From positions 496,001-560,000 of the forward strand of contig JAFCMP010000557.1 of assembly GCA_017506865.1 (NCBI GenBank): 64,000 nucleotides of DNA, read 5' to 3'. How positions within the stretch are numbered: position 1 is the first letter of the stretch; the number at the start of each line of letters is the position of its first letter. The notes below the pieces were generated by a model. That model was not told the origin of the DNA. It saw nothing but the letters and a program-made list of their open reading frames with translations, and ran no database searches. Positions 2,715-45,718 of this stretch are shown piece by piece. The position numbers and the translations under genes were made by a program. This DNA comes from Tribonema minus (lineage: Eukaryota; Sar; Xanthophyceae; Tribonematales; Tribonemataceae).

Positions 2715-3060
2715 TTCAACAGCTCCAGTGTGGAACCACCGTCAATCTCACTCCAGTTCATCCTTCCTGAAATGCTTACTAAAAATGCTTACTATGATGC
2801 AAGTGTGCCCTATGACTCATTGCGGCGCTGTAGATGGTGGCCAAGTACGCGGCGCGCCTGGGCCCGATTCACAGACATGCTCATCTCATGAATCAGCAGA
2901 GCATTCACTGCACTACTCTGGAACCACCACCCATTCTGACCCCGGTTCATCATTAATGCAGTGCTTGCATTTTTCAAGTCTGCTCTATGTCTCGTTGCGC
3001 CGCTGCAGGTGGTGGCCAAGTACGCGGCGCGCCTGGGCCAGAGCTTCGGCGTCTCCACCT
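2715..3060 (+). repeat. Tandem duplication carrying an acceptor and exon 5' edge (RDR)
   Basis: Two diverged units of roughly 190 bp. Unit 1 (about 2715-2900) contains, at 2816-2863, a copy of the intron end plus the first ~33 nt of the KYAARLG exon, with its acceptor changed from GCAG to GTAG. Unit 2 contains the real acceptor and exon start at 3009. The flanking intron sequence (TGGAACCACC, GTTCATC) is duplicated too. Confidence 0.7.
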
Positions 3061-3295
3061 CCACCGTGCACGTGCATACGAGGTCATCCCCGACAAGATG
3101 GCCGACGGCGGGTACTGCTTCAGCGATGGCGTGGGCAGGATGTCAACGCAGCTGGCCGGAGACATTGCAGACAAGTGAGCGACCAGGTTGAGCATTGTAG
3201 GAGCCGTCTCGATTGGTTTGTGAGCGTAATGCTGAGCGACTGAGGCCAGAAGATAGTGGCATAGTGCAACTGTCGAATAGGGCACTGATTCAGCG

Positions 3296-3345
3296 ATGGC
3301 GTGGGCAGGATGTCGACTAAGCTGACCAGAGACATTGCAGACAAG
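3296..3345 (+). repeat. Echo of RDR exon 3' edge with donor
   Basis: A close copy of the end of exon 3009-3174 (the DGVGRMS...DIADK coding end) followed by an intact GTGAGT donor, about 170 bp downstream of the original inside the intron. Confidence 0.8.
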
Positions 3346-4408
3346 TGAGTCAATGGGCGCAGCGGCGTCTCGGTGAATGCGTGTGCCTGACGCTGAGTGA
3401 GCTGAACTAGAATGGCTGATAGTTCTCTAAGGTGACTAGGTGACTAGGCAGAGAGATGCAGCAGTCGTCGCAATTGATGTGTGCGCATGACGCTGAGCAA
3501 GTAGAGCCACGAATAGTGACTTCGTGCAAAACGCACACATCGTACAAAACGCACACATACGCGCCATGTCGACGCGATCACACCTGCGCGCGTGTGCATG
3601 ATTTCCGTGGTATCTCCGCGCGAGTCTTGACACCGCGCGAACGCTGCTGACTGCCTGTCGTTTGCGGCTGTACTGCAGGCTCGACTGGCCGCCGGACTCC
3701 TACCTGCCGTTGGCGCTTCAGGTACCCTCCAGAAATTGTCATGACTGTAGGGTGTGTCTGCACAATCCATCACACCATAGCCGTTGAGTCGTGAGCTCGA
3801 TGCACGTGTTCACGCAGTGTCATGTGGGTACTGGCGGCGGTCACTCTACTTGACAGTGTGCATTACACTGCCAGGCATGGTGAGCAAGCATACATCATGC
3901 AAACGGGCATTCGGCCTTCGTGCACATCGCAGAGGACTGCCTGTGTCGTCCAAGGTTCGCCGCAGCAGTTGAGCAGCGCTGCATGGAGCAGTGCACGATG
4001 ACGAGTCGCAGCAAGTCCCTGTGTGTGCTTCTGGCTTCGGCACTGCTCTGCATTACGTGACTTCACCCTGCCGTTCAGCTCTTGTCTTGCATTCTCTGTG
4101 CAACCAAGCGCAACCGTCAATTGCAACAATACAAAACAGTGCAGGCGGTGTGCGTCCTGAAAGAGCGGAAACACATCACTTTGAACACGACGCCTCAGTG
4201 CGTGTGCAGCTTAGTCTTGATCCGCACAACTTTGTCATCTGTGCCAGCGCTGCCACGGCGCCATCCATCGCGACAGATGATGCGCAGTGAAGGCAGTGTA
4301 CACAGTGGAAGAGCGAACACCAGCTCAAGGAACACCACCTTGATGCATGCGCACGCTTGTGCTGATCGACAAGCTGCCGCCGTCTGCGGCATCGCCGCCA
4401 TGGCGCCA

Positions 4409-4453
4409 CAGGTGCGGTTCGCTGGCGCCAAGGGCATGGTGACGCTGTGCCAT
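4409..4453 (+). repeat. Echo of RDR exon 5' edge with acceptor, frame intact
   Basis: A copy of the acceptor CAG plus about 42 nt of the exon beginning at 4699. It reads VRFAGAKGMVTLCH in the phase expected after the preceding exon. The downstream, longer copy lacks one T (GGTTGCTGG against GGTTCGCTGG) and is out of frame. Confidence 0.75.
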
Positions 4454-5452
4454 GCTGACCCAGAGTCTTTCGGTGCTGCTACCACAACTGCGCCCGCTGC
4501 TTCCGTGCCGTAACAACCACTTGTGCGGCCATGTGCAAGGACCCAGTGCGAAAGGCGACGGAGCTGACGACAGTGACCTCGATGCATTTCCCAGAGCAGA
4601 CTATGTCAAACTTGCAGGACAACACGTCAACATGTGTGCAGCCCTAGCTTCATCCACACGGTCAACTTGTTAACCCCATCGCCACAACGGCACTGCAGGT
4701 GCGGTTGCTGGCGCCAAGGGCATGCTGACGCTGTGCCACAACATGCCGCGCGGGGTGCTCCTGCAGCTGCGGAAGTCGCAGATCAAGTACGAAGCGCCGC
4801 ACCGCAACATGGAGGTACGTATGTGTACGCCCCTCAAGTATAACAGTACGATATGTATACGTGTGTACGCCCCTCAGGTTGACCATTACTATAGAAGTAT
4901 GTACATGCTAGTCGCCGCGTGCTTGGGCGCTTGTCAGGTTCCGGCAGGTCACGAGGGCGCGCTACTCATCAGCCGGATTGATAAGATTGGCAACCCGTGC
5001 AAGTAAGCATTTCATTGAAAGTTGGCATGGGATCATTGCCATTGCTATTGTCAAACGTTGCGCCAGCGGCTGCGCCGTCTGGAGGTAGAAATCCAGCAGC
5101 GCTCCACACCAGTGTGCACCGACATTATTGTGGCTCATGTCAGCTGACATTACGCACATAAGCGGTACATAAGCGGTGCGGTGATGTGCGTTCAGCGTGC
5201 ATGCCCCATCTCAGCGCATTGCCTACTGAACTGCGTTCAGGAAGCCAGTGCCTGTGTAAGGACGCGTGCAACCATTGCGCACCTCAGCGGCACAAACTGT
5301 TGTCATTTGCCAGGTGCTGTTGATGCATGCCATGCGATATGTGGAAGACGCCATAGGGGCTCCAAGCCACTGTGTGACAGCAAAGTTGATCGAATGCATA
5401 CCACCTATCCGCAACCTTGCCCCTCACCTCTTTCCGGCAGACTTAAAGCATG

Positions 5453-5584
5453 GGTCACGAGTGCTGTGCTCTGCTTGGCTGGCATGTTTAGAATCCACGC
5501 TGAAGTTGCCTTGAGCTTGGTCACGAGTGCTGTGCTCTGCTTGGCTGGCATGTTTAGAATCCACGCTGAAGTTGCCTTGAGCTT
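5453..5584 (+). repeat. Perfect 66-bp tandem duplication in RDR intron
   Basis: Two adjacent copies (5453-5518 and 5519-5584) appear identical, so this duplication is very recent compared with the diverged repeats around it. No exon sequence is included. Confidence 0.9.
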
Positions 5585-7770
5585 GTGCTGCAAGTTCAAA
5601 CAGCCTGTCACCAATGCTTGCACGATCAATGATCGTGTGCGCCGCATGCGTGTTTACGACAGTTGTGGTCGCGCCGTGGGCAGGCGGCACGAGCGCTTAC
5701 AGACAGACCGACACATGACGCACCATCCCTCGGGCCAACACTCTTGCGTGTCCCACTGCTTGAAGCGTGTTCAAAGGGGTCTACGGCCTGCATCTTCAAA
5801 TGTGCAACAGCGATTGCGATTACTCTACCCACTTTCCGCATGTACCGGATCATAGCGTCGTGACAACGCTAGGGCATTCGCCCCCACATCACTCAGATGT
5901 GCGGTGCTTGCTTGTTGAGATTCAAAAGTGTACTTTTACTAATTTCGCTTCGCAAGGGGCGCGAAAGGCCCTCTCTGTGGATGTGCATTCAATGCAACAT
6001 TTCTTCTCCGAAGAGAGACTCAAACGCAAACAGGCTTCCCCCTCTTCACACTACCACCAACACCCCACAACCAAACCCTACTTAGGGTTGCCCAGCAGCG
6101 AGGCACACTTGTCCCGTGTACTCAAGTAGTATTAAGGGCAGTTGTGAATATCCGGGTCACAGGTACTGGACTGGGCGAAGCACATGCCGTGCTACCTCAA
6201 CCGCCCCCTGGTGATGCTGCTGGAGTTGCTGGGCGTTCCGCAGCGCTCGTTCATGGAGCTGCTCGAAGACATGCTGAAGGCAAGTCACTTGCTTGAACTT
6301 GACAGTGCTCGGCGAGCCTGCATCGCCTGTGCTTCAATGAGGGTGCTTTGGTGGCGTGTGGCGCTGCTATATTTGTGTTGTCTCTCCCGGATGTGTGCGT
6401 CTGTGCTGCAGTTTGTCCAGGTTAGCTTACCAGCTGGTACTCTGCTACGGCCGTGTGCCTATCGTTGCTGGTCGGTGCCATGCAAGGACTACTGCAAACG
6501 TTGCTGCCTCTCCCAGACTCTTAGCAAAGAGTTTGCCCTCCTTTTACACGGCGTGTTCCCCCTTTCCCGGATGTGTGGGTCTGTGCTGCAATTTGTCCAA
6601 AGGGCGCCTGGCGCGCGCTGCGCGCATCATGTCATCTCGCGAGCGCGCTGCTGAGCAGCGCTGCAGGCCATTGAAGATCTGCCACTTGGTTGCTCGATAA
6701 CGTACGGCACGGTCGCTGCGCTCGTTTTTGAGCGCGCGTCGAGCTTGAACCGTGCTTGTGCTGAGCGTGTACTAGAGCGTAGAGCGTGGTACCACCAGCA
6801 GCGAAAGCGCCGTTGCAGCGCTCGACGTGTGCACACGACCACGCATGCCACTCCAGCTGCTCCAGCCCCTTCCAGTCTCGTTACTTTGGCTGATGAAACA
6901 TATGTGATGTCTTGTGCAGAAAGCGCATTCCATTCATGACGTGTTTGCCGCTTGTTATTAAGTTGGTATTGACCATTGTCCGTCTTCGCAGGCCCTGGAG
7001 CGCGTCACCATCAGCGAGAGCGCCGGCCATGGGTGCGCTCCTCAAGTTTGGCTGCCTAGGCAGGTGACGCACCTTCAATGCTAACTCCAACGCTGCTTGC
7101 GCGTGTGACGCCGTCCGACCCTACGCCTCACTCGCGCTCTGCGCGCCTCGCGCTCTGCGCGCCACGCGCTTTCGCGCGATTGTGAGGCAATGGACAGTGT
7201 TCACAACACAGCAGTTGTGAAGACAGGCTTGCCAGCGCATTGCTTCAGCACCAGGGTGCACCACCAGCGCAGCGGCGCATCCGACTGATTGGCGCACCGC
7301 CCAGCGCGAGCATGCACAGAGTACACGGCTGTACATTTGAGCTGGACCCCATTGACCCGGCCATGCGCATGCGCCTGCTTTGTGTTGACCATGTCCTGGG
7401 CTTGCCGCATAAGATCGAGCCGTGTCAGCCTACTAGTATGGTATACTCACATAAGCGGATAGTATTGGCTGCGGTTGCACGCTCGTGACGAGCTGCACGT
7501 TGACTGTGCGCAACGTCATCAGTTCAAGCACGTGGTATTTTATATTTCATATGCTACTGAAGGCGGGGCACTTTCAAGTAGGCAGAGAGCCAGCTCGCAG
7601 TGCGCGCGATCACGGATGGGGGGGGTGCCGTGATACGGCTGAGAGATTCCCTGCGCACAGCCATGCCCATCACCAAGAGTGTTGCATGCACGCCGCGCCT
7701 GCGCTGCAGCGTCGATACCCTGCCATATACTGACCCCGGCTATGGCAAACTGGTGTGTGCTGGGCAGCTG

Positions 7771-7798
7771 ACCCTAACTCTAACCCTAACCCTAAACC
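7771..7798 (-). repeat. Interstitial telomere-type tract (CCCTAA orientation)
   Basis: Four to five CCCTAA-type units with one variant, inside the RDR intron between 7063 and 8081. Confidence 0.85.
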
Positions 7799-9720
7799 AT
7801 AAGAAAGCCAACCCTTGGTGCGCAATCGCGGCGGGGGGTGACGGGGGAAGGCTCGGACGCGGCCGCCGCATCTGCTTGAACTGCCAGAGATGCTGCATGC
7901 GATGACGCGCCTGCGCTGCAGCGGCCTCCCGTACCAACAGCTGTAGCACGCCGGTGCGCGGAACCTCAACATATAACTGATATGTAGTGAAGTTTGTTCA
8001 GTGGCAGGTGCCGCTGCAGCACTACCAAGCTCACAGCACCGTGCTTGCTCGTCTATTCTTGTAACTGCTGTGACGTGCAGCGGAAACCTGGACGACCCTG
8101 CGGCAGGCGCGCCGATGGTGGTGGCGATGGACCTACTTGAAGCAGGTGGCGCATACAACCTTTTGATAAATTCACATTTCCAAAGTATATTTTTATTGAT
8201 TTGTAACCAAATGCAAAGTGCATTTGTTTACAGTAGTGCCATCTCTGTAGTGCTGGTGATCCTTGTGCAGTGCTTGTTGGCATTGCATGGAATAACGTCC
8301 ACGTCTGTGAAAAGCGTCAATGTTACGAAAACTTGAATCTGTGTTGATGATGAAGGCAAGCCCTAGTACATGGGAGTTCAGCAACTGAGTGTTCTTCACA
8401 GTTCCTTTGGCGTGAATAGATGCTCAGTGACAGCATGTTAGCCACTTGGCAGCTGGCAGAAGGCGTTTGACTCATACATAGGGGTGCTACGAAGCGGCAC
8501 ATGTTGCGAATTTTTGTGAGTTCATGTGACATCAGACTTAGAGAACTTAAAGTGTAAGGACTAAGAGAACTTTAAGCGTGAAAAAAAAGCTGGATCGTCT
8601 CATGTCAAATCAGTGTTTTGACAGCAGGGGTCTTATGGCCAAGCTCCCAACACCACAGACTTGCTCAAGATCTTACATGATGCACTAACCCAGAAGAGAA
8701 TCGGCAGTGCTCGCACACTGCTTGCACAACTTATGATGCATCTTACTGTATCAGTAATGTGATTGATTCAGCCTTGAAGTTCAAAGCCACAAGCGGTACC
8801 ATCTGCCTGTGTGCCATACACAGCGCCCGCAACAGTCACATGCACTGCACACAAGGAAACTTAGATGTAGCCTTGCAGTCTGCTGAAGTTATACTGGAGC
8901 TGGTTGCTGCATGCACAGGATCGCTCTCACTGTGGTTCAACCCCCGCCAAGCAACATGACTGCTGGTTGCACTTTGAAGCCGTGTGAGCAGTATCTCAGG
9001 AGCAGCAGTCAAGCTACATACCCGTCATTGCCATCTCGTAACATGGTACTGCCACTCGTCGCGACGTGCGTCTGCGCATGCAGTTTGTAAGCCCCTGATG
9101 CGCCGTCGGCAATACATCAGTACGGTGATGCAGTTCATTCTGCTCAAACTGCCAATCAAATGTCACCAAACACAAAGCACCTTACCTGTGACTGCCGCAT
9201 TCTCAGGCTTCAAGCTGTCCGAGGAGCCGTACCTCAGGGGAATCATGGACGCTCTGCGCAAGAGCATGATGGAGGAGCTCAAGCAGAGAGCCAGGGTGCT
9301 AGTCCCGCAGGCTGTGTGAGTGCATACCTGTCAAGTTTGCTGAGCACGCCGCCCCTGGAACATGCATGCTGCCATCGCTAGCTACGCTTGCGTATGGAGC
9401 TTCTGAGTACTGACACAGTTAATGTGACTTCATTCCAATGACAGACTCCACAATGTTGCTTGAGTATGCGCAGAGCGCGTAGAAGGACCTCGCAGACAAT
9501 GACCATTTCGACTTGCTGCACAGCTGCCGCATGGGGGTGGCAGTCTATCTGAACCAACTCTGTTTGCATCACCACTATGTAGTATAGGTCCCCTGCCACA
9601 TAAAAAACCACAGCGAACCGCCTCTTCGCACTGCCCTTTGCGCGCAGCGTGCTCTTTGGAGTCATGGACGAGACCAATAGCCTCAAAGACGGTCAGTTGT
9701 TCGTGCAGTACAGGCAAGTG

Positions 9721-9750
9721 TAACCCTAACCCTATCTCTAACCCTAACCC
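9721..9750 (-). repeat. Interstitial telomere-type tract next to an RDR donor
   Basis: CCCTAA units begin seven bases after a GC-type donor (AG|GCAAGT, exon end 9713), so the tract forms the start of the intron. Confidence 0.85.
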
Positions 9751-10401
9751 TGAGACGCGCCTGTAGACTAGCCATGTAGGTGTTGTACTACAAGGAACCG
9801 AGTGCCCCTGCCCCCCCCCACCCCCCCCCGGTGCTGCAACACCTGTAGGGAGTATTGAGTATTAGAAGCTTAACACGTTGGATGATGCACTTGTTTTTGT
9901 TGAAGTACATGCGCATGCATGCCGCCAGTACAGGCGCGTGCACGTGGTACATGCGAGTGCATGAGATACACGCAAGAACAGTGGGGGGCACAGAGGCTGT
10001 CGCGCACAGGTTGCGGGAACGGGTTCCCCCCTTGCCCGCCCCATACAATGAGCATTGAGCGCTGCGGCTTGCCATGGGGTGAACTTAACGGTGCAGTACG
10101 AGCGAACACGCGCTCGAAGCAAAGCCCGCGCATCAAGAGGGATACAGTACATCAGACCACTTACACTGCAGCGCTCAGCGTCGTGACCCTGCAGTGGGGC
10201 AGGGTGCGGAGGCCAGAAGGTCGTGTTAGTTGGACCGTGGAGCCATGCTTGTTTTGACTGCTTGTCGCAATGTGAGTGGCACCCAAGCGGACAGTACCCT
10301 GCAGCAAGTGTCCCTGAGCGCTCGCATTCCGGCTGGCAGCATGCCCTTCTTCGCAGTAAGTACTGTATAAGTGTGGTGATCCGCTGTGGTGATGCGTCCC
10401 T

Positions 10402-10420
10402 GGGGTAGGGTTAGGTTAGG
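10402..10420 (+). repeat. Short telomere-type tract
   Basis: Degenerate GGGTAGGGTTAGGTTAGG in the RDR intron between 9713 and 10723. Confidence 0.6.
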
Positions 10421-12183
10421 ATCGGGGCTAGCATAGCCCACCCATACTGCGTGGACACCAAATTGGCCCATGCACTGCATGGACACCAAATTGGCCCATG
10501 CGGCACATGAAGACGCGGCTAGTTTTCCTGCTAATTGCGGTCCACCAGTGCTCAGTGACAGCACACACACCGAACTCTTCTGCGGCACAGTGTGAACGAG
10601 GTCTTCTGATCTACAGGTAGTGACTGTGACAGTGTTATGTTTACAGGCGTTGGCTGCACCGCTTCATGCATCTGATTGTGAACGTCATGCCCGTGACTCT
10701 CTTATGAATTGGTCAACTGCAGGCCCCCGGTTCAAGGCAAGCACAACAAGAGGGGCTACGAGGGCGGCCCAGCCGTGCTTAGGCTGGGGGAGGTGCTCGT
10801 CGGCAGAAACCCATCGCTCCATCCCGGCGATGTGAGGGTACTGGAAGGTCAGCATCGAGCTCGAACCGGCCCTGCATACACTTTTGTATTGCGGTACCGA
10901 AGTAGAGGAAGGGGCATCTTCGGAGTGCACGAATGGCATTCGCGCCACGACTGTCCTGCGGGTTTGTCGCTCCGTTCTTGCCGATGGCGTTGATGCAGGC
11001 ATGTCGGTAAGTTGAGCAGCGCTGCACTTGACAATTTGCACGCCGCCGCCGCCGCTGCGCCTTGCTGGCGTGGCCAACCCTAGCATGCACGGCGCTGCAG
11101 CTGTGCGCAGAGCGAGGCGTACACGCTACAGGCAGGACTAGTGGGGCAGATACCCATGTACACGAGATATCACCGCCGAAAGTCGGCCAGCCGAAATGTT
11201 TGCGACACAAAAACTCGGCTCGCTTTGCACGACTGTACACTGTACGGTCCCGCAGGGAGTTCTCTACATTGCGCAGCTGTTGTACTGCCTGCTGGGTGCT
11301 CGAGTCAGGCATAATCAACATCAGCGCTCAGGCAGAATCGACGCGCCAGGACAGATCAATGTCGGAGCAAGAATCAGTGCCAGCGTCGCCGGCGTGCGTT
11401 CCGGCTTGTGCGTGCGCCAACCGGGCGTTGTCTCTCGGCACGCCTAGTAGCATGAACTCAGGAGCAGACTTCAACTTGAAGCACGCGACTGACACTTGCG
11501 TAGCGCCAGCCCGCGCTCATACTGCCGCAGCGCCGGTGGAGCGCTGTTGTCAAACGCCTCAGGCAAGCGCGCGGCGTCGAATTTGGTGCGCTACAGTAGT
11601 TTATCGCTTCCGCGCTGCGCAGCCGCATGCGTCGCTTGCGCCTTTTCTACCGTGCAGCACTGCTCATACTGTCATCACCTCCTCCCCGAACGATGCACTC
11701 TCAATTTTGTGTATCATTAACCCACGCTGCTCTGCGCGCACCGGCTCAGCTATGGACGCGCCCGTCGGCTGTATGCGCCGCTTGCACCCTCCTGCCCTGC
11801 AGCACTGTTCACCAATCATGCCGTGCGATGCACACAACGATGCGCGCATATACTTCAATACCAAGTGTATAGTATCACTTTGAAGTCTGTATGACGCGCT
11901 CTGTATCACGTATGCACTGGCGCAGCCGTGGACGCGCCAGCGCTGCGGCACCTGACGAACTGCGCGGTGTTCCCGGCGGAGGGGCAGCGGCCGCACCCCT
12001 CGCAGATGGCAGGCGGGGACCTCAATGGCGACATCTTCTTTGTGTGCTGGGACGAGTCGCTGCTTCCGCCGCCCTGGCAACGCAATCAGGTGCAGCGTTC
12101 TCGCGGTCTGATTTGACTTGTCCTGTTTGCGTCTGTATGAGAACTGGTCGCCACATAGTATTACATACCTTGAAGTACTTGTA

Positions 12184-12278
12184 CCCCTCGCAGATGGCGG
12201 GGGGCGGATCTGGATGGTGACATCTTTCTTGTGTGCTGGGACAAGTCGCTGCTTGCGCAGCCCTCGCAAGGCAACCAG
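12184..12278 (+). repeat. Frameshifted duplicate of RDR catalytic exon encoding DLDGD
   Basis: A copy of the 3' part of exon 11926-12089 plus its donor and about 15-20 nt of intron. One extra G in the G-run near 12200 puts the upstream half (PSQMAGG) out of frame with the downstream half. That downstream half encodes DLDGDIFLVCWDKSLL, with the canonical catalytic triad, and ends in a GT donor at 12279. As spliced from its own AG it meets a stop at once, so it cannot replace the main exon directly. Confidence 0.85.
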
Positions 12279-14088
12279 GTGCAGTGTTCCCGCGACCTGC
12301 TATGGCGTAATGCCCCTTCGTCAAACTTGAACGAAGTGACCTGACCTTTTGCAAATGCTGGGTCACGATCTGGTGACATGAAAACGAATCAAAAGATCGT
12401 AGAGCTCTAGGTGACAAGGGATGGTTAGCCGCAAGTGCCTTCCATCAATAACCGTGGTCGCCGCTGCTGCAGCAATTGGCCACAAGACATCTTTGCTGTT
12501 GACTAAGACTTGGTGGTGCTGCATTCTCATACGATGCGTGTATGCGACATGCGGCTGGCTGCCACAGTGCTCATGAGGTTTGCAACCCTACGGCGCTGTC
12601 CGACCTTCAGACTGTACAATCATACCGGTGCGCAAGTGGTCATAGTGTAGTGCCAACTGTCTCCGCGCAAGCTGAAGAGGTCTGTATACTGTAGTACACA
12701 GTATACTGTAGTACACAGTATAATGTTGTGGCAGCAGCATGGAAAGGCCCTGCATGCCAAATGTTAGAGTTTGCTCCAGGTGCAGCATCATTGGTGGAGG
12801 ACTTGCTTGCCAACTGTACAAGTCCTCTCCAGCAGTAAAAAATTGCTGGGGACTCTCATTGCGTCTGCACGAAATTGAAACTTGCACATCTTGTTTGTCT
12901 GCCGTACCTGTGCGCTCATCCCTGCGCTGAAGCGGAAGGTTGTGTAGGATGCTACACTTGCATACACCAAATGGCATTTTAATACTGCAGTGTCTGACGT
13001 ATGACTTTTGTCCTGTATGCAAGCGCAGCATACATACCCCAGCAAACCTCTTTTTTCACTGCTGCAACGGCATCCCATCCAACTCCAGCCCCAATCCTTT
13101 GCTGCGTTCGCAAGTTTTCTCACACCCTCTGAGTATCGCAACGGCCCGAGCTGAGCTGCATGATATCGTAGATGAACGTAACATTGAATGCTTCCAGTTT
13201 GCTGATGTACCTACTTCAACTATGTACTAAGCCTCAAGGTCAGCAACAACGGCGTCACACAACCCACAGCTGCAGCAGCGTGGCGTCGGTCGCTGCCTTT
13301 CCATATACAGCAAATTGGTGTTTGTTGCTGCCTTGGGTGCACTGCGCTGACACACGCGGCTTCGTCGCTGCGCGCGCAGGAAGCCATGGACTACACCGCG
13401 CCGACCCCTCAGAAGGTCGATGTTGTCACCACCGCTCACCTGAAGGTGAACGCGCGATGCCACTTGTCTTGCGCGACTTAGATCAGAGTCTGCTTGCGGT
13501 CTTGTGTAGTGTAACAGTTGTGGGCGTCATAACGACGCCATAGAAACTGAAAGCGCTGGCTCAGTTTCCTGTGCGGAGCGCCGAAAGCTCTGGCGCAGGC
13601 AAGTGTATCTGCCCTTCCATGCTGAACGTGCCATGTCGTGATGTTTCACAGCCAGAGGCAGTTGAAAGGCCGCTTGCCTGGTAACGGCTGCTGGAGGGAC
13701 CCTCACGTGCATGTACACACCATGTATTGCTAGTACGTCTTGCTCTATGATGAATGCTGTACTTGCTGTACTTGTTGAAGTGAGTTCGCTTTGCATGTAT
13801 GCTCTCGTTGCGGTATCATCCACCGCACTGCAAGGCGAGCACCCATAAGAGTGTAGCGTCATACCGAGTTGCGTTCACTGAAACTGTTACACACGCACGC
13901 CGGAGCAACACCTGCCACTACCACTCTCATGTACTACTAGCTGCTTGAGTTCTACAATTTGCACCATGTGCGACCGCAGCTCAATAGGCCCTTATGCCCA
14001 CCACATAGCTGCACGTGCTTGAGAAGCATGTGAGTTGGAAGCGTGCAACGCCCACTGTTGCACCCATCAAGTCGTGTGCCGGGATCAT

Positions 14089-14110
14089 AACCCAAACCCT
14101 AACCCTAACC
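14089..14110 (-). repeat. Short telomere-type tract
   Basis: AACCCAAACCCTAACCCTAACC in the RDR intron before the exon at 14310. Confidence 0.75.
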
Positions 14111-16520: not shown

Positions 16521-16526
16521 TGCGCT

Positions 16527-16569
<43 letters not shown>

Positions 16570-16582
16570 GCTGCTGCTCTTG
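16521..16582 (+). repeat. (GCT/CTG)n microsatellite serving as an intron 3' end
   Basis: About 13 uninterrupted GCT units followed by CCGCTGCTGCTCTTGCTGCAG, running directly into the acceptor of the exon at 16589. The triplet tract occupies the place of the polypyrimidine tract. Confidence 0.9.
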
Positions 16583-17776
16583 CTGCAGGGGTACATGGAG
16601 GAGGCCGAGCAGCACCTGCATCACTACACGTACGAGCTGCGCCAGATCATGAAGCAGGTGAGCACTCGGTCAGAGTGTACGTACGCGCAGCAGCACATGT
16701 TGCACACAACCGTTACCATCGTACCGCGTTTGGCAGGCTGTGCACCGCATCTACGGCAAGAACTGTTGCAGACATGTACTTCTCGCCAAATGTATAGCAC
16801 CGAATTACCGACAGTGTACTAGTGATCGCTGCATGCCATCTGCATAGGGTGAGTGTACGTGCTCTCTTGAGCTCCAGGGCCGCACCTGGTGCAGGGCACG
16901 GGCTCGCGCATGTCAACAGCTCAGTGGTTCTCACTTGAAAAAGGTTGACCATTCCGCCGCCGCCGCATGCGCTTCACCGCTGCTTGCAGTTCGTCGTCAG
17001 CGACGAGCACGCCCTCATGAGCGGCAGGGCGAAGCCCGGCGCGCGCGCGGCCGCCGGCAGGCGCAACAAGCACCACGGCGAGGCCCAGAAGCAGATGGAC
17101 CTGCAGCTCGCGCGGCTGCGCGCCGAGTACCGGCGCCTCTTCTTCGAGGGCTTTGCGCAGGTAGGTGATTGACCTCAGGCTAGGTATGTATGTATGATGG
17201 TGGCTCACGCCTCGTGCCGAGGGAGTGCAAATATGGTTTTGGAGCTTGCGCGGTCCCTTCTCCCTGTCACGTCGACTTGGTTGGTGCGCTCAGAAAGGGG
17301 GCGACAGCTCGTTCATGTAGTGTCAGCACGGGTGATCTTGCAAGCCTCAGCTCCAGGCAAGGGATGACGCACCTTTACCCCGCAGTTTCCGCACCGTTCA
17401 CGCGCTGATCACGCCGCGCATGAAATGAGGGCGACAGCAGCAACGGCGCCACTGCCAGCGGCGGCCGCCACGTCTCATATAGAGTATTTCCATACAACAT
17501 ATGCGCAGCACATGCAGCGTCTGTGCTCAGCAGCCTTCGGCGTTTCACACTTTGGTCACTTGCCTCGCACGCAATCAGGACGGCCGCGGCGCCGGCGCCG
17601 CCAGTGGCAGCAGCAGCGGCACCGCCGCCGTGAGCGGCGCGGAGCTCTTTGAGCGGCTGCGCAAGGCGAGCGCGTGGTACGCGACGGCTGCCGAGCACAA
17701 GCACGCGGACGTGGCGATGAGCTTTCCGTTCGTCGTGCACGATTTGCTATGCGAGCTCAGGGGGGCGCCGCAGTGA

Positions 17777-20151: not shown

Positions 20152-20195
<44 letters not shown>

Positions 20196-21310: not shown

Positions 21311-21341
<31 letters not shown>

Positions 21342-21426
21342 GGCAAAGAAGCCGCAGCAGCGCGCAGCGGCCGGCGGCAAGCCGCGGCGGCTCAGCCTGA
21401 GCCTGGAGGGCGTCATGGCGCGCCGC

Positions 21427-34275: not shown

Positions 34276-34510
34276 CTACTTGGTCTGGTTGGCGACGCCC
34301 TCGATGCGCGCGCGCACGGCGGCCTGGTCGCCGAGGTAGCGCCCCTGCAGCGGCGCGATGGCGTCGGCGTGCGGGACGACCTTGAGGTCCGCGTCGAGCT
34401 CATACACGAGCGGCGTCGCCGTGGGGATGTTGAGCCCCGTGATGACGTCCTCGGGGATGCCGTCGAGGTGCTTGACGAGCGCGCGCAGCGAGTTGCCGTG
34501 CGCCGCGATC

Positions 34511-34545
<35 letters not shown>

Positions 34546-37500
34546 GTGCTGAGCGTCAACACTCACGCGGCAGGTACACGGCTCCGCTGAGCACTGATGC
34601 AAGATCGCGCGCGCGGAGAGAGAGGGGGAGGACGACGCTGAGCGTCAGCACTTCAAGGTGGCAGCGATGGCGCGCGTTGAGTCACGTCGTGATGACGTCC
34701 TCGGGGATGCCGTCGAGGTGCTTGACGAGCGCGCGCAGCGAGTTGCCGTGCGCCGCAATCTGCGCTATTGCGCGTGCAGGGAGAGAGGGGGGGAACGACA
34801 CTGTACGTAAGCACTTGAAGTTGGCAGGGATGGCGCGTGTTGATGCCATGCACGCGCTTCAGAGCGAATCACAGCGCTCAGCTCGAGGGCCCTGATGGGG
34901 TACTCGCAGGAGCACATCGCGCGCTCGCGCTGACGCACTTGCACCGAAGCAGAGCGCAAGGTCGACGCGCGCCGCACTGATGGGCACACATTGGAGTACA
35001 TTGTGCAGTGATCGCCAATGCGCGTTAGACGCGTTCGAGGTGCTCACGAGGTGCACGTAGATTCTGGCGGCAAGCAAGCTGAACATCCGCCATCTGGGCT
35101 TCTTCGCGCCCTACACGAGAAAGTACAATGTGCGGCTTGGTTGTGGGGTGGTGGTGATAGGGTGAAGAGGGGGAAGCCTGCTCGCGTTTGAGTCTCTCTG
35201 CGGAGAAGGAGCGAGTGCTGCTGCATTGAGTGCAGTCCGATATGAGTGGGCTTTTCCCGCCCCATTGGCAAGCGAAATCAATAAACAGTACATGCGTGCA
35301 CACGCAGGAGGAGTACACACAGGAGAACACTGCGCACTCACGATGACACGCTCGCCGGCGCGGATGCGCGGCGCGATCTCCGCCTCCCAGTACGGCAGCA
35401 CGCGCTCCAGCGTCGTGGCGAGCGACTCGGTGCGCGGCAGCTTGTCGCGCGGCAGCGCGGCATACTTGTCGTCGTTGCCGGGGTAGTGCTCCGAGGACGT
35501 GTCCAACGCAGGCGGCGGGATGTCGTAGGAGCGGCGCCACACGAGTACCTGCGGGGGGGGGGGGGGAGGGGAAGGGGACAGCGCTCAGAAAAGGGGGGGA
35601 AGGGGGGATAGCGTGCATATCTGCGGAACCCGCCATGGGCTTCTGTGTGTAGGTTTGTGGGGGCATGCCTGCCTCAATCTGAGCCTCGCACGAACGTGAC
35701 GCGTGATGCTGGGCGCGCTGTGACTGCGTCAATTTGGCGGCGCGACAGGGCCCGCCTATACCTAGGTACCTACATGGCACAGGGCACGAGCCAGCCGTTG
35801 CCCCATCTTGCAGCTGAGTACCATGCCGCGAGTGGTGCAACAGCGGCGGCGATAGTCAAAATGAAACGCGCGGGCATACCTGCTCCTTGCCATGCTTGGC
35901 AATCGTCTCCTGCTTGTCCAACAGCGACGGCGATACTGAAATGAAAACCTGCGTGCGCATGCACCTGCCGTGCTTGGCGACCGTCTCCTGCTTTCCAACA
36001 GCGATGGCGATAATGAACTAGAAACCCTAGTGCGTATCGTGTGCATGTACCTGCTCCTTGCCGTGCTTGGCAACCGTCTCCTGCTTGTCGAGCCCCGTAA
36101 GCCCCCCGTAGTGGCGCTCGTTGAGCTGCCACGCCGGCACGACCGGCAGGTGCATCTGGTCCGTCTGCTCCAGCGCGTGCCAGCAAGTCTTTATCGCGCG
36201 CCGCAGGTAGCTGCGGCGAGAGCGCAAATGTGATTATCGTCAGAAAATGACAATCACCGAGGCAAAAGAAACAGAAAATTGCTGCAGGTGCGGGCACAGG
36301 ACGACGCGCCAGAGGGTGGCAATGTGAGCGATGATGACAGTTGTGGCGAGCGACGTCCACGAAAGACAATGTCAGCCATGTGCGTGTGCCTTTGATGTGT
36401 TGCGCCATTGGCTGCACCCGAGGCCAGGTGCGGTGTACATCACTCTCATACCGGTTTGTTACATTTGCACTTCGAAGGCAGATCCATATGGTTTGATTTT
36501 TGACAGTTCATGTGTGGCATGCGGCAGCTCTGAGCCCCTCACACACCGCTGCAAATGACACTTCTGCAACTTGTGGCCAGAGACACCTTTTGAAGTACAT
36601 GAGGTTTAAAAAAAAATTATTCCCAATGGCACTACGTGTATGCCTTGCGTATCGGACCAAGGTAGAACGTGACTCACATCTCCCTTGCGCAAATCGTGGC
36701 ATCATCTTGAAAGCGACGATGGCCGTGCGGTCGCCACAGAGATAATGCTGCAGCTGCAACTTCAACTGCAACTGCAACAAGGTCACTGGACTGAAAGCGC
36801 GATTAATTTTTGTGGTGTGGCCACCAAGTGAGTGGCTCACAAATAACTGCTGAAAATGGTTTCAGGGCGGGTCACCTCTCCTCAGCCAACTATGCACATC
36901 TGTTCTACTGCGTGACCTTCACATATGGTGTATGAGCGTCAATCTATAGAAATCAGAGACACTAGTTGACTTTTGTGACCCTTCAGGATGCCTGCCGCAA
37001 AGTGTACATACATACTTCCGACCAGTTCAAGTGCGAAAACTGGACATTTTTTTACAAGGTGTGACCTCAGGAATGGAGACAAACACCCTGATGAAGCCAT
37101 CATGCAGACTAGTTGGATAATTGTTGCACCAACCTGGTGTACGCCAAGTCAAACTTGAAGTTCCCCTGCTTGAGCAGCTTGCCCGCCTCCACTGCCTCCT
37201 TCTCTCCCGCAGGCGACAGTGCCACGTCGTACCACCCCGTGAATCTCTGCAGCGTGCGATAATGTACCATCAGATCAGGGACAGCAGCGTGTACGCAGGC
37301 ACAGTTGCACGGCGCGCACTTGCTGATGCATGCGCACCGATTGCCAGCCGCAATTCTTCATCATTTGCCAATGATTGGCGAAGAAATATGAGCGCTTGAA
37401 CGACGTCTATGAGCTCGCTCTGCATGCCTGCAGAAACTGCACAGGCACAGATCCTTCGATAGCTGCAGCGCGATTGCACAGCACCACACACCCGTTTGAC

Positions 37501-38216: not shown

Positions 38217-41200
38217 ATGGAACCCACTACTGCAAGGGATCTGGGGCTGGAGCTGTCGACAGCTGCACCACCGGAAGGAGCTGCCACGCCGGAGCTGCTT
38301 GTGCAGAAGCAGGGGCAGAGGGTGGGCACAATACGATTGCATAGGGAGATTACGGTACTGGGGCGCAATAGCAACATGGCGGATGAAGTGCTGGAGCACC
38401 AGAGCGTCAGCCGGAGGCATGCAGCCATCCTGCACGGTGCCGACAGCGCTTTGTACATTGCAGATCTTGGCAGCGTTCATGGCACCTTCACAGGCAGCAC
38501 AAGACTGCCGAAGAAGACGCCCGTGGTATTGGCAGACGGTGATGTCCTACGCTTCGGAGAAAGCAGTCGGTCCTATACAGTCCAACTGCCGCCACCTGAG
38601 AAGCCCGCGATGATCGCACCTGCGCCGCGCGCTGCACAGCGGCAGCAGCAGCGACCGAGCAGCGACGACGACGAAGGCAACGAAACCATGCCGCCGCCGC
38701 AGCACTCACCGTCTGTCACAGAGCCGGCAGCGCAGGCGCCGCAGGACGCGGCGGCCGAGCGCGAGCGACGGCGAGCAGAGATCGCCGCCGTGACGGCGCA
38801 GCTGAGTGCGGCGCCGACCTTCACGCGGGCGGTGCCCGAAGCAGCAGAGGGGGGGGGGCGAAACAACGGCGGCGGCGGAGAGGACAGCGACGAAGAGGAG
38901 GAGGAGGAGGAGGAGACGCCGGAGCAGCGCGCGCGGCGCACGGCGCGGCGCCTGGAGCTCCCCTTGAGCCACGAGGCCGCGCTCAAGGGGCACCGCAAGG
39001 CGGTCACGGCGCTGTCGGTGGACCCGGGGGGCGGGCGCGTCGCGACGGGCGGCACCGACTACACGGTGCGCCTGTACGACTTCGGCGGCATGGACCGGCA
39101 CCACCGCGCGTTCCGCGAGGTCGAGCCGGAGGACGGGCATGTGGTCGTCGCGCTGAGCCACAGCGGCACGGGCGACCGCTTCCTCGCGTGCACGGCGTCC
39201 GCGCAGCCCAAGGTGTACGACAGGGACGGCGTCGAGCTCGCGCACTTCGTGCGCGGCGACCCGTACCTGCGCGACATGCGCCAGACCAAGGGGCACGTGA
39301 CGTCCGTCACGTGCGGGCAGTGGCACCCGTCGCAGCGCAACACGGTGAGTGAGTCCTTCAGGGAGTGAGTCACTGAGTGAGTGAGTGAGTGAGTAGTCTG
39401 AAATTGCTGCAGCCTGGCGGTCGCTGCTTGCTCGACACGGTCATCTGCTTCGTGACGAGGCCGACGTGCAGATCTGCGGCGAGTTGGCGGCAGGCAGCAG
39501 TGATTAGGTGTCTGCTGCTTGAGCACTTGGCTCAGCGCAGAGGGCCGCAGGGGTCAGGTCACAGGGGTCAGTTGGGGTGTGCGGCATGCAGAGAGACGGC
39601 CAGACCGTCTGCAGCGAGGCTTGTCTGATGTGAACCTGCTACTATGCAAAGGGGCACCTGCAAGTGCAGCCGCGAGACCAGCGATACCTGCGCTTGAGGT
39701 ACGCGCGGTGAGGACTTAGAAGTACATCTTGACTGACTGCTTCCCAGCAGGGTATGCCGCACCGGTACACCTGCACACTTCATCCGCCGCCGCCACCCTT
39801 GCACTTCCCTCGCCCGTTTCATCGCGTCGCGTCGCGACGTTCCGCCGCAGGGCCTGACGGGCTCCATGAACGGCACTGTGCTGTCGTGCTCCGCCCCCGC
39901 AATGATCTCGCTTCCTCATCGCAGTGCCCCTCTCCGTGCAGGGCTAGGGTCAAGGTCAGGGTTAAGGGTTTCCTAACCATAGCCCTGACCCTGACGCACA
40001 GTGGCTCCGTCGACCGCTCGGCCGGAGTGTGATGCTCACTGTCACATGCTCAGTTCACCTGAGTCTCGGCCCGCGCCTCACTTGCTCACGATGCTTTGCC
40101 GCTGCAGGTGCTTACCTCTACCCGCGCCTCACTCGCTTGCGGTATCGCGCTGTTGCAGGCCCTCACGGGCTCCGTGGACAGCACCGCCCCCATCTGAGAC
40201 TCGCTAGTACCAGCACGCGCACAATTCACCTGCGTCGGCGCCCGCGCCTCACTCTCGCCGTCCGCACCGCACCGCACCGCTGTTGCAGGTCCTGACGGGC
40301 TCCGTGGATCGCACCGACCGCCGGAGTCCGATGCTCACTGCCACGCGCACAATCCACCTCGTCTCCGCTCACGCCTCACTCGCTCTCGTTGCCTTGCTTG
40401 CTCACGACGCCGCGCTGTTGCAGGTCCTCACGGGCTCCGTCGACGGCACCGCGCGCGTGTGGGACCTCAACGGCCCCACGACCTTCGACAAGCTGCACTG
40501 CAAGCTGGTGCTGCGCGTGAAGCCGGCGCGCATCGGCGGCAAGGTGCCCGTCACGAGCGTGTGCTACGACCCGGACGCGCGCTGCATCGCGGTGGGGGGG
40601 GGCGACGGATCGGTGCGCGTGCTGCCGGCGGGCGGGGGGACGGGCGGCTCTACGGCCCTGGGCAGGTACGTATGTACTTTTTATTTAGTTCTTGCTCAGG
40701 GCGCGAACGCGCAGATGTACCCATTTATACATGTATATTTCGAAAGTACATGCTTCGAAGTATATATACATGTATGTTATGTACATGTATACTCTGAAAG
40801 TACGCTGGCGGGCGGCGGGATGGGCGGCTCCACGGCCCTGGGCAGGTACGTATGTATACATGTACACTTTTGAAGTAGGTTTGTGCAGGCATGTGAGTAG
40901 CGTCTTTGGCGCGCGCTGCATTGCGGTGTGGGGGGGGGGGGACAGATCGGTGCGCGTGCTGCCGGGGGGCGGCGGGACGGGCGGCGGCGGGACGGGCGGC
41001 TCTATGGCCCTGGCAGGTATTTATCATGTATACGTACATGTATACTTCGCAAGTATATAGAAGTACTTCAAGTATATATTTTGACTCGTGGCCAATTGTC
41101 GCAGCAGCGGCGACCACGGTCATTGGTGGAAGGCATTCGATTCGACGGCTAACCTCACCTTGTCGCCTAGAGCTTTACGATCTTCTGATTCGTTCCCATT

Positions 41201-44200
41201 CGTTCAAGAATCCTCCTTTCATCTACACAGAAATGGGTCGCTCATGACCTGTGCCTCTCTGCTGATCGCTGCTGCAGCGTCGCGGAGGCCGCGCACGGCG
41301 CGGGCAGCGTCGTCACGTGCGTCGCGTACCACGAGGAGGGCCACCTGCTGGCGTCGCGCGGGACGGACGACTGCGTGCGGCTCTGGGACGTGCGCAAGTT
41401 CAAGGAGCCCATCAGGGTGAGTCACGCTGCCTGCCGCACTTCAACAGTTGCGGTTGCAGAGCGCATCAGGGGTTGCAGAGCGCAGGAGGGGTGTCGCTGT
41501 TTTGCTTAAAAACTGCAGTTGCGGCAGAGCCCATCGACTGCGTGCGGCTCTGGGACGTGCGCAAGTTCAAGGAGCCCATCAGGGTGAGTCTCGCTTGAAG
41601 TTCAACACTTGCAGGGGCAGAGTGCATCGTGTCGCTGTTTCACTTCGTGAGTTGCAGTTGCGACAGAGCCGATCAGGGGGTGAGTCTCGCGCTGTTTAAG
41701 TTCTATACTGCCTAACTCCAACACGGGCAGCTGCGCCAAAACGCAGCTGCTGGAAAGCGCGCCTTCTGGGACACTACAGCCACTACAGCGCGTTCGCCCG
41801 TGATGCGTGCAACGCTCGCGATCTTGAAGTCTGTGTGGAGCGCTGCTGCGGCGCGCGCTGGGCCATCACGCAGGCCACCCTGCGTGGCATCAGGCAGGCC
41901 ACCCGTACGCCAGCAGGCTGCGCGCGCGCAGGCGCACTTTCTTACAGGCCGCGGCAGCGTGCGCTGCATTACACAACACTGCGTATTCCACCCCCCCCCC
42001 CCCTCTCGTCTTTGAAAGCGTGAACGTCTCGCTGCTGCCTTGCACCACCACGTCCGTGGCACACCGCGTACCCCAATACTTAACCCCCCCCCCATCCCCC
42101 TGCTCCTCTCGCACCGAATACTTATGCCCCCTTCCCCCCCCCCAATTGCTCCTTGAACGCGCTGCAGATCGTCCGCGGCGTCGGCACGCACATGGAGACG
42201 AGCAACGTGGCCTTCAGCCCCGACGGGCGCACGCTGGCAGTGGGCACTAATGCGCCGCCCAAGTCCACAGAGTGCGGCGGCATCAAGTTCTTCCCCGTGT
42301 ACGGGGCGGTTGAAGAGGTAAGCGATGTGATACTTCAACTTCAAGTACACACAATTGAAGTATAAGCGACTTTTGATGCTTCAACTTCAAGTACCCATAC
42401 TTGAAGTTGCCCCGTGGGCACACAACGCGCCGCCCCAATTACACAGAGCGCGGAGGCATCAAGTTCTTACCCGTGTACGGGGCAGTCAAGGAGGCAAGTC
42501 TGACTGACACCTGCGCGCCAGTAATCCGCTGCGGCAGGGGTCCTTGTCTGCCGCAAATGGCAATGCCGCACTGCGCAGCGGCTTCATGATTGCGTGTTCG
42601 AGTGCAGCATCGAACTACCACATTGCTCAGCGATGGAAGTACATCATGGTGTCTGCGTGGAGCTGGGTGGCCCTCAGACGGGTCTGTCTGTGGGGGGAGA
42701 GGCTTTTAGCTTTGTTTGGTATCCCTGCTATTATGTGGGGGACAGTTGCTTGCGGGTGCTTTGTTGGGGGTGATGTGGGGGGCGGGATGGGGCGTGCGAG
42801 CTTTGCATGCTACATCCAAGAGTGAAAACAAGGCGACACACCTACAGCATGGCATTTCCACAGCCACAAGTGGAATATAATACAAGTACATGATGGAGTA
42901 CAGCCTTGCTACGCAGCACTGCTCAACGATAATGGTACACCGTCGTGTTCAGCCTTGTACTGCAGCACTGGTGAAATGTCGTATAGTAGCTATGCAGCAC
43001 TGCTCAGTGACAATGGTACACCGTCGAGTTGAGCGTTGTACTGCAGCACTGCTCAGCGAAGATTCTACACCGTCCAGACACAGCCCTGCACTGCTGCACT
43101 GCAACGATGCCACACTGGCGGGTACAGCCTTGCACGCGAATCATTGCCATACACCGCCCGAGTACAGCCGCGTACTGCAGCAACGCTGCTCACCGTGCCG
43201 AGCGCTGCAGGTGACGGAGCCGGAGCTGCAGATCAGCGTGGCGGCTGCGGGGGAGAGCGTGGTGCGTGTGCTGTGGCACCCCAAGCTCAAGCAGATCCTC
43301 GCGTCCACGACAGGGGGCTACACCAAGGTGAGTTCGCCGACGCTTATGCGCTGCGTTAGTTGGAACTGGTTGCTTTTTCAGTGTTTCAAGTGAAGGCATC
43401 CTTACCGACATGAGACGGAGTAATAAATTAAGATTACAAAAATCTGAATTTGAAAATAGTTACAGTAAACTTTGCGGGGGAGGGGGGTGAGGGACCTGAT
43501 GCTGCGTGTGTTGGAGCCTTTCCGTGCTTTTTGGGGGGAGGGCGGAGGGGAGGATCGTTCCGCTTACTCGTCTCACGAGCCTGTCACTTTCTTGTTCAAC
43601 TTGTGGTCACCACTGCCGCACAGCGCCGTCGGTGTTTTCCGGGGACTTGCTCCGTTGTACAGCAGCAACCATCCACATTGTGTGCATCACACAAACCTGC
43701 TGTGAGAGAGGAGACCGCGTCCCGGTCGTGCAGCGCATATGTTCTTAGGTTCCGAGCCGTGCGCGCAACGCGTGCCAACGAGCCGCAGGCAATTTATTGT
43801 CTGCTGCTGCGCGCGTGCTCGGAACGTGCTACCCGCAACGTTTGTATGCCTACATGCGCCCGCGTCTCGTCATTGACAGCACCCGTTACTAATGCTCACG
43901 TACCCACATGCGCTCGCCCCGCATCGTCGGCAACACCCATTCATAATGCCTATATAGTATGTGCCCACATATGCTCGCCCCGTGTCAGCAACCCATTTGG
44001 GAATGCCTGAATTGTACTTCTATGTGCTTACACGCCCCGTGTCATGGGCAACACCCATTCAGAATGCCTATATGCCTACATGCACTCGCCTCTTGTTGTC
44101 AGCAACACCCCTCTTTGTTGATGCCTATATGCCCACATGCGCTCGCCCCGTGTCGTCGGCAAATCCCATTCAGAATGCCTATACTTCTATATAGTATAGG

Positions 44201-45718
44201 CCAACATACACGAGCCCCGTGTCAACGACAACATCCATCAACAATGCCTATGTAGTATGTGCTTACATGCACTCGCCCCGCGTCGTCGCTGCGCAGGTCC
44301 TGTACGACCCCGCCATGAGCGTCAAGGGCGCCATGATGACCAGCCAGCGCACGCACCGCGCCGCCACGACCGACTACGTGCCGGACAACATGGTGAGTAC
44401 ATCTACTTGTCATATCTACATCTATGCGCTTAGGTTGCGAGGGGGGTACACGGCAAGGCCCATGCTTGCACAGCTGCGAACCGGCCTGCATGAGTGGGAG
44501 GCTGGCAGTGTCCGCAGGTGGCAAGCGCGTCACGCCCGGTGGCCTGTAGGCAGTTGCCGCCATGTGTAGCGACCTGTGCAGAGGCGTATTGCTTCGTTTG
44601 GGGCGGTCTGTGCTGGCTCGCAGCTGGCGCGCTGGCAGCTTACCGCATGCTCGGCGAGCTCGCCGCGCATGCGCACTGCGTGCGACGGCGCCGTTGTCAT
44701 GCGCGCATTGCTCAGCAGTCGTGGAATTCGGACGCGCTGGGTGCGCATGCCCCGCCAAGCGTGCGTCGTAACTTCGCGTACGCTTCAACGCGGGGCGCCT
44801 CTGTCTGTGGCACGCCATGCGTCGGCCACACACGTTGCCGCCATCGTCATCTCGATGATGCTCCGCGGCCTGCATGCGCTCAGGTGCCAGCGTTCTGCTG
44901 GTACATACATAGTGCAGCTGCATACAGTGGCAGGCGGCGCACGCAAGCGCTCGCCGGGCATGTCGATGTCCTTTTTTGTGCAACTCGTTACTTTTGCAGT
45001 GCGAGTTTGAAGTAATTTCCGCGAGGATGCAAGGCATGCTGCGGCGCTCACGTCGACCAGGCAGTGGCGCGTGTCGTGTGCATTCCACAATTGGAAGATT
45101 TGCAAACTCTGAGACGCCATCGCACCTTGCTGCAGCCTGGTTTGAGCGTCTCAGAGACCCCCAGCTGGCGAATGCCGACACCACGATCACATGCTTTGTG
45201 ACAGACTCAGTGTCACATGCGTCTCTGCGTCAGGATCACACCCCGCTGCCCCCCCCCTGCTCTAACTCACTTACTTACCGCCCCCCCGCCCCGCCCCCCC
45301 TTCCTTCCCCCCCCCCCCCTTACCCCCCAACCAGGTCGGCGTCATCCACAACCCGTACGCGCTGCCCATGTACCGCGAGGAGCACACGTCCAAGCGCAAG
45401 CTCGCGGAGCAGGCGCGCAAGGACCCGAAGCGCTCGCGCAAGCCGGAGCCGCCGCTCAACGGGCCCACCGGCGCAGGCGGGCGCGTGAGCTCGAGCACGT
45501 CCTTCACGCAGTTCGTCATGAGCAACAAGCTGCTTAATAAGCCCAAGCTGCGCGAGCAGGATCCGCGCGCGGAGCTGCTCAAAGTGGCGAGCGCCGCGGA
45601 GGCGGACCCCGCGTACTTTGGCGCGTTCGCGTGGAACAAGGCGCCCCTCGCGTCCAAGACGATTGACGAGGAGGCCGCCGAGTTTGAGGAGGAGCAGAAG
45701 CGCCTGCTCGACAGCTGA
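38217..45718 (+). CDS. WDR70: WDR70-like WD40 protein with N-terminal FHA domain, 751 aa
   Basis: Exons: 38217-39344, 40424-40665, 41278-41416, 42168-42317, 43211-43327, 44297-44392, 45335-45718. The total of 2256 nt closes in frame. Residues 35-122 form an FHA (phosphothreonine-binding) domain: LGRNSNMADEVLEHQSVSRR then H, and DLGSVHGTF. The H in place of the usual N, and the GR...HQS.SR.HAA layout, resemble NIPP1/PPP1R8. An acidic stretch (EDSDEEEEEEEE) follows, then the WD40 domain with family-specific blocks: LKGHRKAVTALSVDP, YDFGGMD, AQPKVYDRDG, DMRQTKGH, GSVDGTARVWDLNG, DDCVRLWDVRKFKEP, VLWHPKLKQI, VLYDPAMS. The conserved C-terminal tail (DPRAELLKVASAAEADP) is present. WDR70 is a nuclear protein linked to DNA-damage responses and H2B ubiquitination. 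The FHA and the first WD repeats share one uninterrupted exon, so the fusion is read directly. Confidence 0.92.
39840..40423 (+). repeat. Array of echoes of WDR70 exon 2 5' edge with acceptors
   Basis: Before the real acceptor (40421-40423), copies of TTGCAG|GTCCTCACGGGCTCC occur at about 39848 (GCAG|GGCCTGACGGGC), 40159 and 40290, with a remnant at about 40004. Each has a usable AG. Spacer sequence (GATGCTCACTGnCAC, CTCGGCnCGCGCCTCACT) is repeated too. Unit length is about 130-150 bp. Confidence 0.85.
39940..39995. repeat. Telomere-type quasi-palindrome
   Basis: GGGCTAGGGTCAAGGTCAGG, then GTTAAGGGTTT, is followed at once by CCTAACCATAGCCCTGACCC: telomere-like units in one orientation then the other, able to fold back. 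It lies in WDR70 intron 1. Confidence 0.7.
40803..41016 (+). repeat. Two echoes of WDR70 exon 2 3' edge with donor
   Basis: The exon end coding VRVLPAGGGTGGSTALG plus its GGCAG|GTACGTATGT donor recurs at 40803-40845 (donor intact) and, as a longer copy with a duplicated GGGACGGGCGGC, at about 40908-41016. AT-rich GTATACATGTA-type sequence follows each. Confidence 0.88.
41533..41583 (+). repeat. Echo of WDR70 exon 3 3' edge with donor
   Basis: About 50 nt appear identical to the end of exon 41278-41416 (DCVRLWDVRKFKEPIR) followed by GTGAGTC. Shorter remnants lie at about 41455-41480 and 41660-41685. Confidence 0.9.
42330..42493 (+). repeat. Echo of WDR70 exon 4 3' edge, donor changed to GC
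   Basis: 42426-42493 copies the exon end coding CGGIKFFPVYGAVEE (real end 42317). Its junction reads GAG|GCAAGT where the original has GAG|GTAAGC. The interval starts with three ACTTCAAGT/ACTTGAAGT-rich blocks (42331-42410). Confidence 0.85.
42890..43195 (+). repeat. Minisatellite leading into WDR70 exon 5 acceptor
   Basis: Four or five diverged units of about 55-60 bp: GTACAGCCTTGCACTGCAGC then ACTGCTCAnnGATAATGGTACACCGTC. The array ends just before the acceptor at 43210. Confidence 0.85.
43830..44290 (+). repeat. ~60-bp tandem array leading into WDR70 exon 6 acceptor
   Basis: About eight units of CACATGCnCTCGCCCCGTGT, then CGTCGGCAACACCCATTCAGA and ATGCCTATAT, including diverged ones (CCAACATACACGAGCCCCGT). 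The last unit (ACATGCACTCGCCCCGCGTC) merges into the GCTGCGCAG acceptor at 44296. Confidence 0.9.

Follow-up and report, generated by a model that had tools for sequence, protein, structure and literature searches.

Genes in the window

Tribonema minus is a yellow-green alga, and its assembly comprises 158 Mb in 554 contigs. The stretch analysed here, referred to as the window, is 64,000 nucleotides long and corresponds to bases 496001-560000 of a contig of 569,426 bp. Local repeats were surveyed in 313 kb of sequence, made up of the window, the flanks of its contig and stretches of other contigs, including C1, C50, C112, C150 and C223. Genes were predicted using a simple self-written gene finder, for which this sequence served as the training set. 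All junctions reported below are predictions of this gene finder, with the exception of the WDR70-like gene, whose exons were placed with the deposited protein P0001. Among the predicted donors 79% were GT and 20% GC, most acceptors read GCAG, and the median intron length was 458 bases.

The four genes named in the original prediction (RDR, MKK, PGAM and WDR70) were all recovered by the gene finder, and their Pfam domains agreed with the names at the level of RdRP, Pkinase, His_Phos_1 and FHA plus WD40.

974..17776, + strand: RNA-dependent RNA polymerase gene; own model; Pfam RdRP PF05183, 362 bits with the model's own letters
19963..31543, + strand: protein kinase gene (originally MKK); own model; Pkinase PF00069, 183 bits
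34276..37512, - strand: phosphoglycerate-mutase-like gene (originally PGAM); own model; His_Phos_1 PF00300, 89 bits
38217..45715, + strand: FHA + WD40 (WDR70-like) gene; exons placed by deposited protein P0001, which contains both domains

The joint model of the kinase gene extends to 34201, and its 3' end is uncertain. In the fourth gene an FHA domain is fused to a WDR70-like WD40 protein (window 38217-39344); FHA (PF00498) was also present in the matches from Ectocarpus, Phaeothamnion, Nannochloropsis and Odontella. By eye, the RdRP frame seems to be broken at about 3060-3085, between STVHVH and the next PDKMADGG stretch, by sequencing error or gene decay. Three very similar genes in both orientations, which we take to be light-harvesting protein genes, were seen at 51.6 to 64 kb of the window and in L017. 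Interstitial telomere-like TTAGGG runs lie at 1323-1400, 23543-23631 and in further places.

Exon edges are repeated inside the neighbouring introns

In the four genes, exon edges had been described to recur, together with their donor or acceptor, as extra copies (echoes) inside the neighbouring intron. Self-alignment of the window confirmed this, with pairs such as 2786-2867/2962-3042, 11995-12115/12183-12304, 27402-27522/27607-27727, 40624-40676/40804-40856, 41368-41467/41535-41628 and 42240-42322/42414-42498. Copies of donor edges were located downstream and copies of acceptor edges upstream of the real edge, as claimed. A repeat copy covered the junction, reaching 8 or more bases to either side of it, at 14 of the 81 scored junctions in the window, two of which (28485 and 40289) are edges of exons that the model had built on an echo. 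Exons that scored below 8 in the gene finder, or whose protein consists of A, G, S, P and Q to more than 60%, do not enter these spanned-junction counts; without the latter filter 30/298 junctions were spanned and the deep-intron coverage was 2.6%.

When 44-base queries from exon edges were compared with their own intron, a score of at least 18 was reached at 14/89 window edges. This test uses the same gene models, and among its 14 edges 59751 is a coding microsatellite, while 28425 and 40289 are edges taken by the model from an echo. Among 3,703 control queries, compared with introns from other genes, the highest score was 17, so that none reached 18. As regards introner-like mobile introns, which would show as related introns at unrelated loci, a random stretch of other introns drawn for each query gave no match, a sample that is not genome-wide. 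The following echoes were found in the window; percentages give the identity of the copies.

2786..3042, + strand: acceptor-edge echo 2786-2867 of edge 3009 (real copy 2962-3042), 84%
3110..3349, + strand: donor-edge echo 3280-3349 of edge 3175 (3110-3179 judged real by eye), 90%
4390..4738, + strand: acceptor-edge echo 4390-4452 of edge 4699, 87%
11995..12304, + strand: donor-edge echo 12183-12304 of edge 12090, 83%
25225..25508, + strand: donor-edge echo array of edge 25248
26384..27012, + strand: donor-edge echo 26886-27012 of edge 26419, 76%
27402..27727, + strand: acceptor-edge echo 27402-27522 of edge 27624, 90%
27746..27996, + strand: abutting donor-edge echo 27869-27996 of edge 27754, unit about 123 bp
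28113..28729, + strand: acceptor-edge echoes, sites near 28200 and 28425, of edge 28662
28784..28880, + strand: donor-edge echo 28845-28880 of edge 28806, 86%
34438..34815, - strand: acceptor-edge echo 34688-34815 of edge 34510, 84%
35877..36089, - strand: donor-edge echo 35877-35918 of edge 36051, 95%
40148..40456, + strand: acceptor-edge echoes, site 40289, of edge 40424; another at 39851 is a P0001 exon
40576..41038, + strand: two donor-edge echoes, sites 40846 and about 41017, of edge 40666, 89-92%
41368..41690, + strand: two donor-edge echoes, sites 41584 and 41680, of edge 41417; 41530-41583 is a P0001 exon
42240..42498, + strand: donor-edge echo 42414-42498 of edge 42318, GT changed to GC, 84%

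Past 44296 the sole junction-spanning pairs in the window belonged to a coding microsatellite (59538-59868). A side observation concerns the RdRP gene, where by eye the predicted exon at 12020-12034 encodes DLNGD and the intronic echo at 12206-12222 encodes DLDGD in a shifted frame; this position is presumably the catalytic motif.

The copy at 41533 had been called apparently identical. This was true of its exon part but not of its intron part: between edge 41417 and the echo at 41584, 49/49 exon bases and 37/45 aligned intron bases were the same, and the echo at 41680 is shortened. Since 8/45 intron bases differ, we concluded that this copy is no assembly duplicate. An exact pair like 5453-5585 may be spurious, but about 5 to 28% of positions differ within the curated junction pairs, by substitutions as well as indels, and such pairs were found on several contigs, which makes an assembly artefact as the general explanation barely credible.

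Properties of the copies were determined on 23 curated echoes. This set leaves out a doubtful exon at -9778, the coding microsatellites at 32448 and 59538, the multi-copy acceptor at 40148, extra copies at junctions already counted, and rows on C50 (9695, 9728) and C150 (2141 and the 36756 array). At the junction near 25248, pair 25237 was used for the substitution and gap counts and pair 25225 for the splice-score and frame tests.

The echoes arose by tandem duplication

In the 313 kb surveyed, 139 local repeat pairs (64 clusters) were direct and 3 were inverted, a ratio that points to tandem copying rather than to inserted fragments. The 139 pairs include coding microsatellites, several rows per array and 19 pairs from the C112 stretch, which was excluded from all junction counts because of its viral appearance. 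This stretch (C112:1500001-1530000, L021-L023) encodes proteins that look giant-virus-like, has tandem repeats of its own and is a possible insertion.

The echo units hold exon and intron together with the splice site, the dinucleotide of which was kept at 25/25 scored junctions (23 alignments, two serving two junctions each). As the copies hold intron in addition to exon, they are the product of a tandem duplication of DNA, and as the junctions in them are unspliced, an origin from RNA is excluded. Some copies abut, e.g. 27746/27869. Among 64 spaced pairs, homology continued through the spacer in 22 at z>3 and in 33 at z>2; the remaining 31, without spacer homology at z>2, require a subsequent deletion or insertion. 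Of the original prediction, both the tandem duplication across the splice junction and the growth of the intron were supported.

Duplications within introns were common; the share of deep intron sequence that they covered was 3.5% for the window and 1.7% for four other regions. Inside exons we found no convincing recent duplicate, as is expected if selection removes such copies while splicing hides those that span a junction. Thirteen exon-exon pairs were 59-69% alike, except for one 35-base pair at 89%; we take these as compositional or protein repeats, and the 35-base pair as a codon repeat.

Two candidate causes of the duplications were considered and set aside. The motif TTGAAGT/ACTTCAA is over-represented in introns (e.g. 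at 42332 and 12170) and was found within 25 bp of 29/297 intronic repeat ends, compared with 11.6 at random intron points; the repeat ends are non-independent and no element was seen. A subtelomeric position was rejected, as the last 240 bases of the contig are without telomere repeats.

Echoes outside the window and their density at junctions

In the contig flanks 6/37 junctions were spanned, two of them being both edges of one doubtful exon. In four other regions the number was 5/144, all in C150 and C223; echoes in C50 were doubtful, and none were seen in the sampled stretch of C1. The echoes are therefore not limited to the four genes, and that limit was the limit of the window.

The original prediction had also suggested a process biased to splice junctions, and random exon positions as the control. 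Exon-interior windows seldom matched neighbouring introns (8/219 in the window, 0/93 in the flanks and 3/662 in the other regions), and some of the 8, e.g. 40576-40648, belong to units that reach the edge. This control cannot reveal a bias, because selection removes duplications inside exons; the proper yardstick is intron-interior DNA. In simulations a junction pair was detected more readily than an intron pair of the same age, by a factor of 1.26 for spanned junctions and 1.43 for edge queries.

Measured against the intron-interior rate, with the factor of 1.26 applied, the 14 spanned junctions of the window compared with 3.6 expected and the 6 of the flanks with 1.8. Such numbers would result if a duplication process favoured splice junctions or exon borders, for example by being tied to transcription, chromatin or exon sequence, and expanded introns from their edges. 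The edge queries pointed in the same direction, with copies at 14/89 exon-edge windows in the window, 4/35 in the flanks and 7/138 outside the contig (25/262 in total). The corresponding counts for intron windows were 59/804, 25/443 and, in the other regions, 40/1220, in which an intron event enters about two times, as each of its copies is an intron window. The share of intron windows with a copy also fell away from exons, from 28/384 at 60-120 bp to 22/862 beyond 500 bp; this higher density of duplications around exons, whatever their kind, explains part of the remaining junction excess. Against a junction-favouring process, the four other regions gave 5/144 versus 3.0 expected. When only copies of at least 80% identity were counted, observed and expected numbers were 9 and 1.0 in the window, 5 and 1.1 in the flanks, and 1 (of 144) and 1.5 in the four other regions. 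Moreover, the length of the exon piece in a duplicated unit varies between 8 bases (the set minimum) and 104 bases without a fixed breakpoint, and the window had been picked because of its visible echoes. Among junctions not seen in the original prediction, 11/181 were spanned compared with 5.1 expected (Poisson p 0.015, a value that takes account neither of clustering nor of the error in the control rate). An excess of perhaps 2 to 4 times, depending on the test, thus remains at the junctions of this contig, which was chosen for it, and the data lean slightly towards the suggested bias here; elsewhere it was not established. We consider a junction-favouring process unlikely as the main source of the echoes.

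Splice strength, reading frame and coding differences of the echoes

The splice dinucleotide was kept in 23/23 curated echoes, in one of them as GC for GT, and 19/23 echoes scored within 1.5 units of the real site, with a mean drop of 0.5 compared with 1.7 to 3.6 expected. Three exon-edge pairs outside the 23, in which the alignment ends before the junction, seem by eye to keep the site as well. If sites decayed neutrally at 6 to 11% each, 3 to 6 of the 23 dinucleotides should have been lost (P 0.03 to 0.0007). Such retention would fit echo sites that are used, as alternative or unproductive (poison) splice sites under selection, and in the same sense the deposited WDR70-like protein P0001 has two echoes as exons, 41530-41583 and 39851. 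The retention is less striking at a lower true decay rate, which the second codon positions (14/321 differences) allow, and the echoes may be younger than assumed. The acceptor echo at 2834 has lost its whole score despite a kept AG. Moreover, the distances between echo and real site showed no bias towards multiples of three (9/23), and use of the echo instead of the original gave an open, in-frame extension in 1/23 only. The two P0001 pieces were absent from 8/8 relatives compared, and the deposited model may be a prediction; judged from these comparisons, the echo exons in P0001 are likely an annotation error. Nevertheless, that P0001 carries them is a warning that gene models of T. minus can contain echo exons.

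We regard selected use of the echo sites as quite improbable. Still somewhat less probable is that the echoes are decoy or poison sites selected as such, in which the duplicated junction would give a second strong, frame-breaking site that tunes the share of productive mRNA. As the frame stays open in only 1/23, the echoes look like tolerated decoys. The decoy splice sites of the original prediction hold up in the sense of sites with decoy strength, and we take the echoes to be, most probably, tolerated by-products.

Between the real and the echo exon parts 46 non-synonymous and 43 synonymous differences were counted, distributed over codon positions 1, 2 and 3 as 28/316, 14/321 and 47/320. 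The non-synonymous share is 52%; 73% would be expected with neither copy constrained and, by our own arithmetic, about 60% with one copy free and one constrained. A coding constraint on the echoes was considered from these codon positions and set aside, as one constrained copy explains most of the pattern. Gaps numbered 6 in 957 exon bases and 52 in 1,572 intron bases of the echoes.

Proposed origin and comparison with known systems

The explanation that we prefer, with a probability of roughly 0.72, is frequent local tandem duplication, in which junction-spanning copies are tolerated as neutral intron growth and exon-internal ones are lost. T. minus would often gain short local tandem duplications, perhaps by slippage or unequal exchange; at junctions the distance between copies is about 60 to 500 bp. 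Duplications wholly within exons would harm the protein and be lost. A duplication spanning a junction would place an extra piece of exon and an extra splice site in the intron; splicing would presumably stay on the exon-proximal, original site, leaving the protein unchanged, so that the duplication could persist as neutral growth of the intron, and repeated rounds would give arrays. Several points count against neutral tandem growth, namely the excess of about 3 to 4 times over the intron-interior rate that this contig retains after the 1.26 correction, the excess at previously unseen junctions, the complete retention of dinucleotides, the few gaps in exon parts and the 31/64 spacers without homology.

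About one sixth of the scored junctions (14/81 in the window, 6/37 in the flanks) form a natural set of paired, near-equal splice sites at varied distances. Such pairs would permit splice-site choice, intron growth and exon birth to be measured directly.

To our knowledge, tandem duplication across a splice junction is known from single cases. A search of mostly open literature, at the level of titles and abstract openings, returned no account of many such units in one genome. In a potato RdRp gene, one tandem duplication crosses an intron-exon boundary and a second one nearby lies within an intron; the copy gave rise to an extra spliced exon and a new intron, a structure backed by RNA and by reads (Ma, Lan, Niu 2016, PMC4974935). 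The copies in T. minus are likewise direct and adjacent and the unit likewise consists of exon and intron with a splice site, whereas T. minus has about two dozen units in about 280 kb, inside existing introns and mostly impossible to read through.

In the classical model an intron is gained when a piece of exon containing AGGT is duplicated (Rogers 1989, Hellsten 2011; via PMC4974935). Both have in common that tandem duplication supplies splice sites; in T. minus, by contrast, the unit crosses an existing junction, the copies share the type of site and no intron is born. In agreement with the original prediction, which had set the echoes apart from this model, the surroundings of donor and acceptor in 100 introns had a mean of 11.87 matches compared with 11.73 after shuffling, and no run of at least 9 was found.

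For Drosophila, novel intron positions have been attributed to sliding or tandem duplication (Lehmann et al. 2010, PMC2891723). Regional tandem duplication that changes gene structure is common to both systems; the Drosophila cases concern coding units with a proto-splice site recognised by comparison between species, and echoes do not appear in the abstract of that study (PMC2891723). We conclude that the echoes of T. minus are a dense form of a known kind of mutation and not a new system, and that they are distinct by their density and their outcome.
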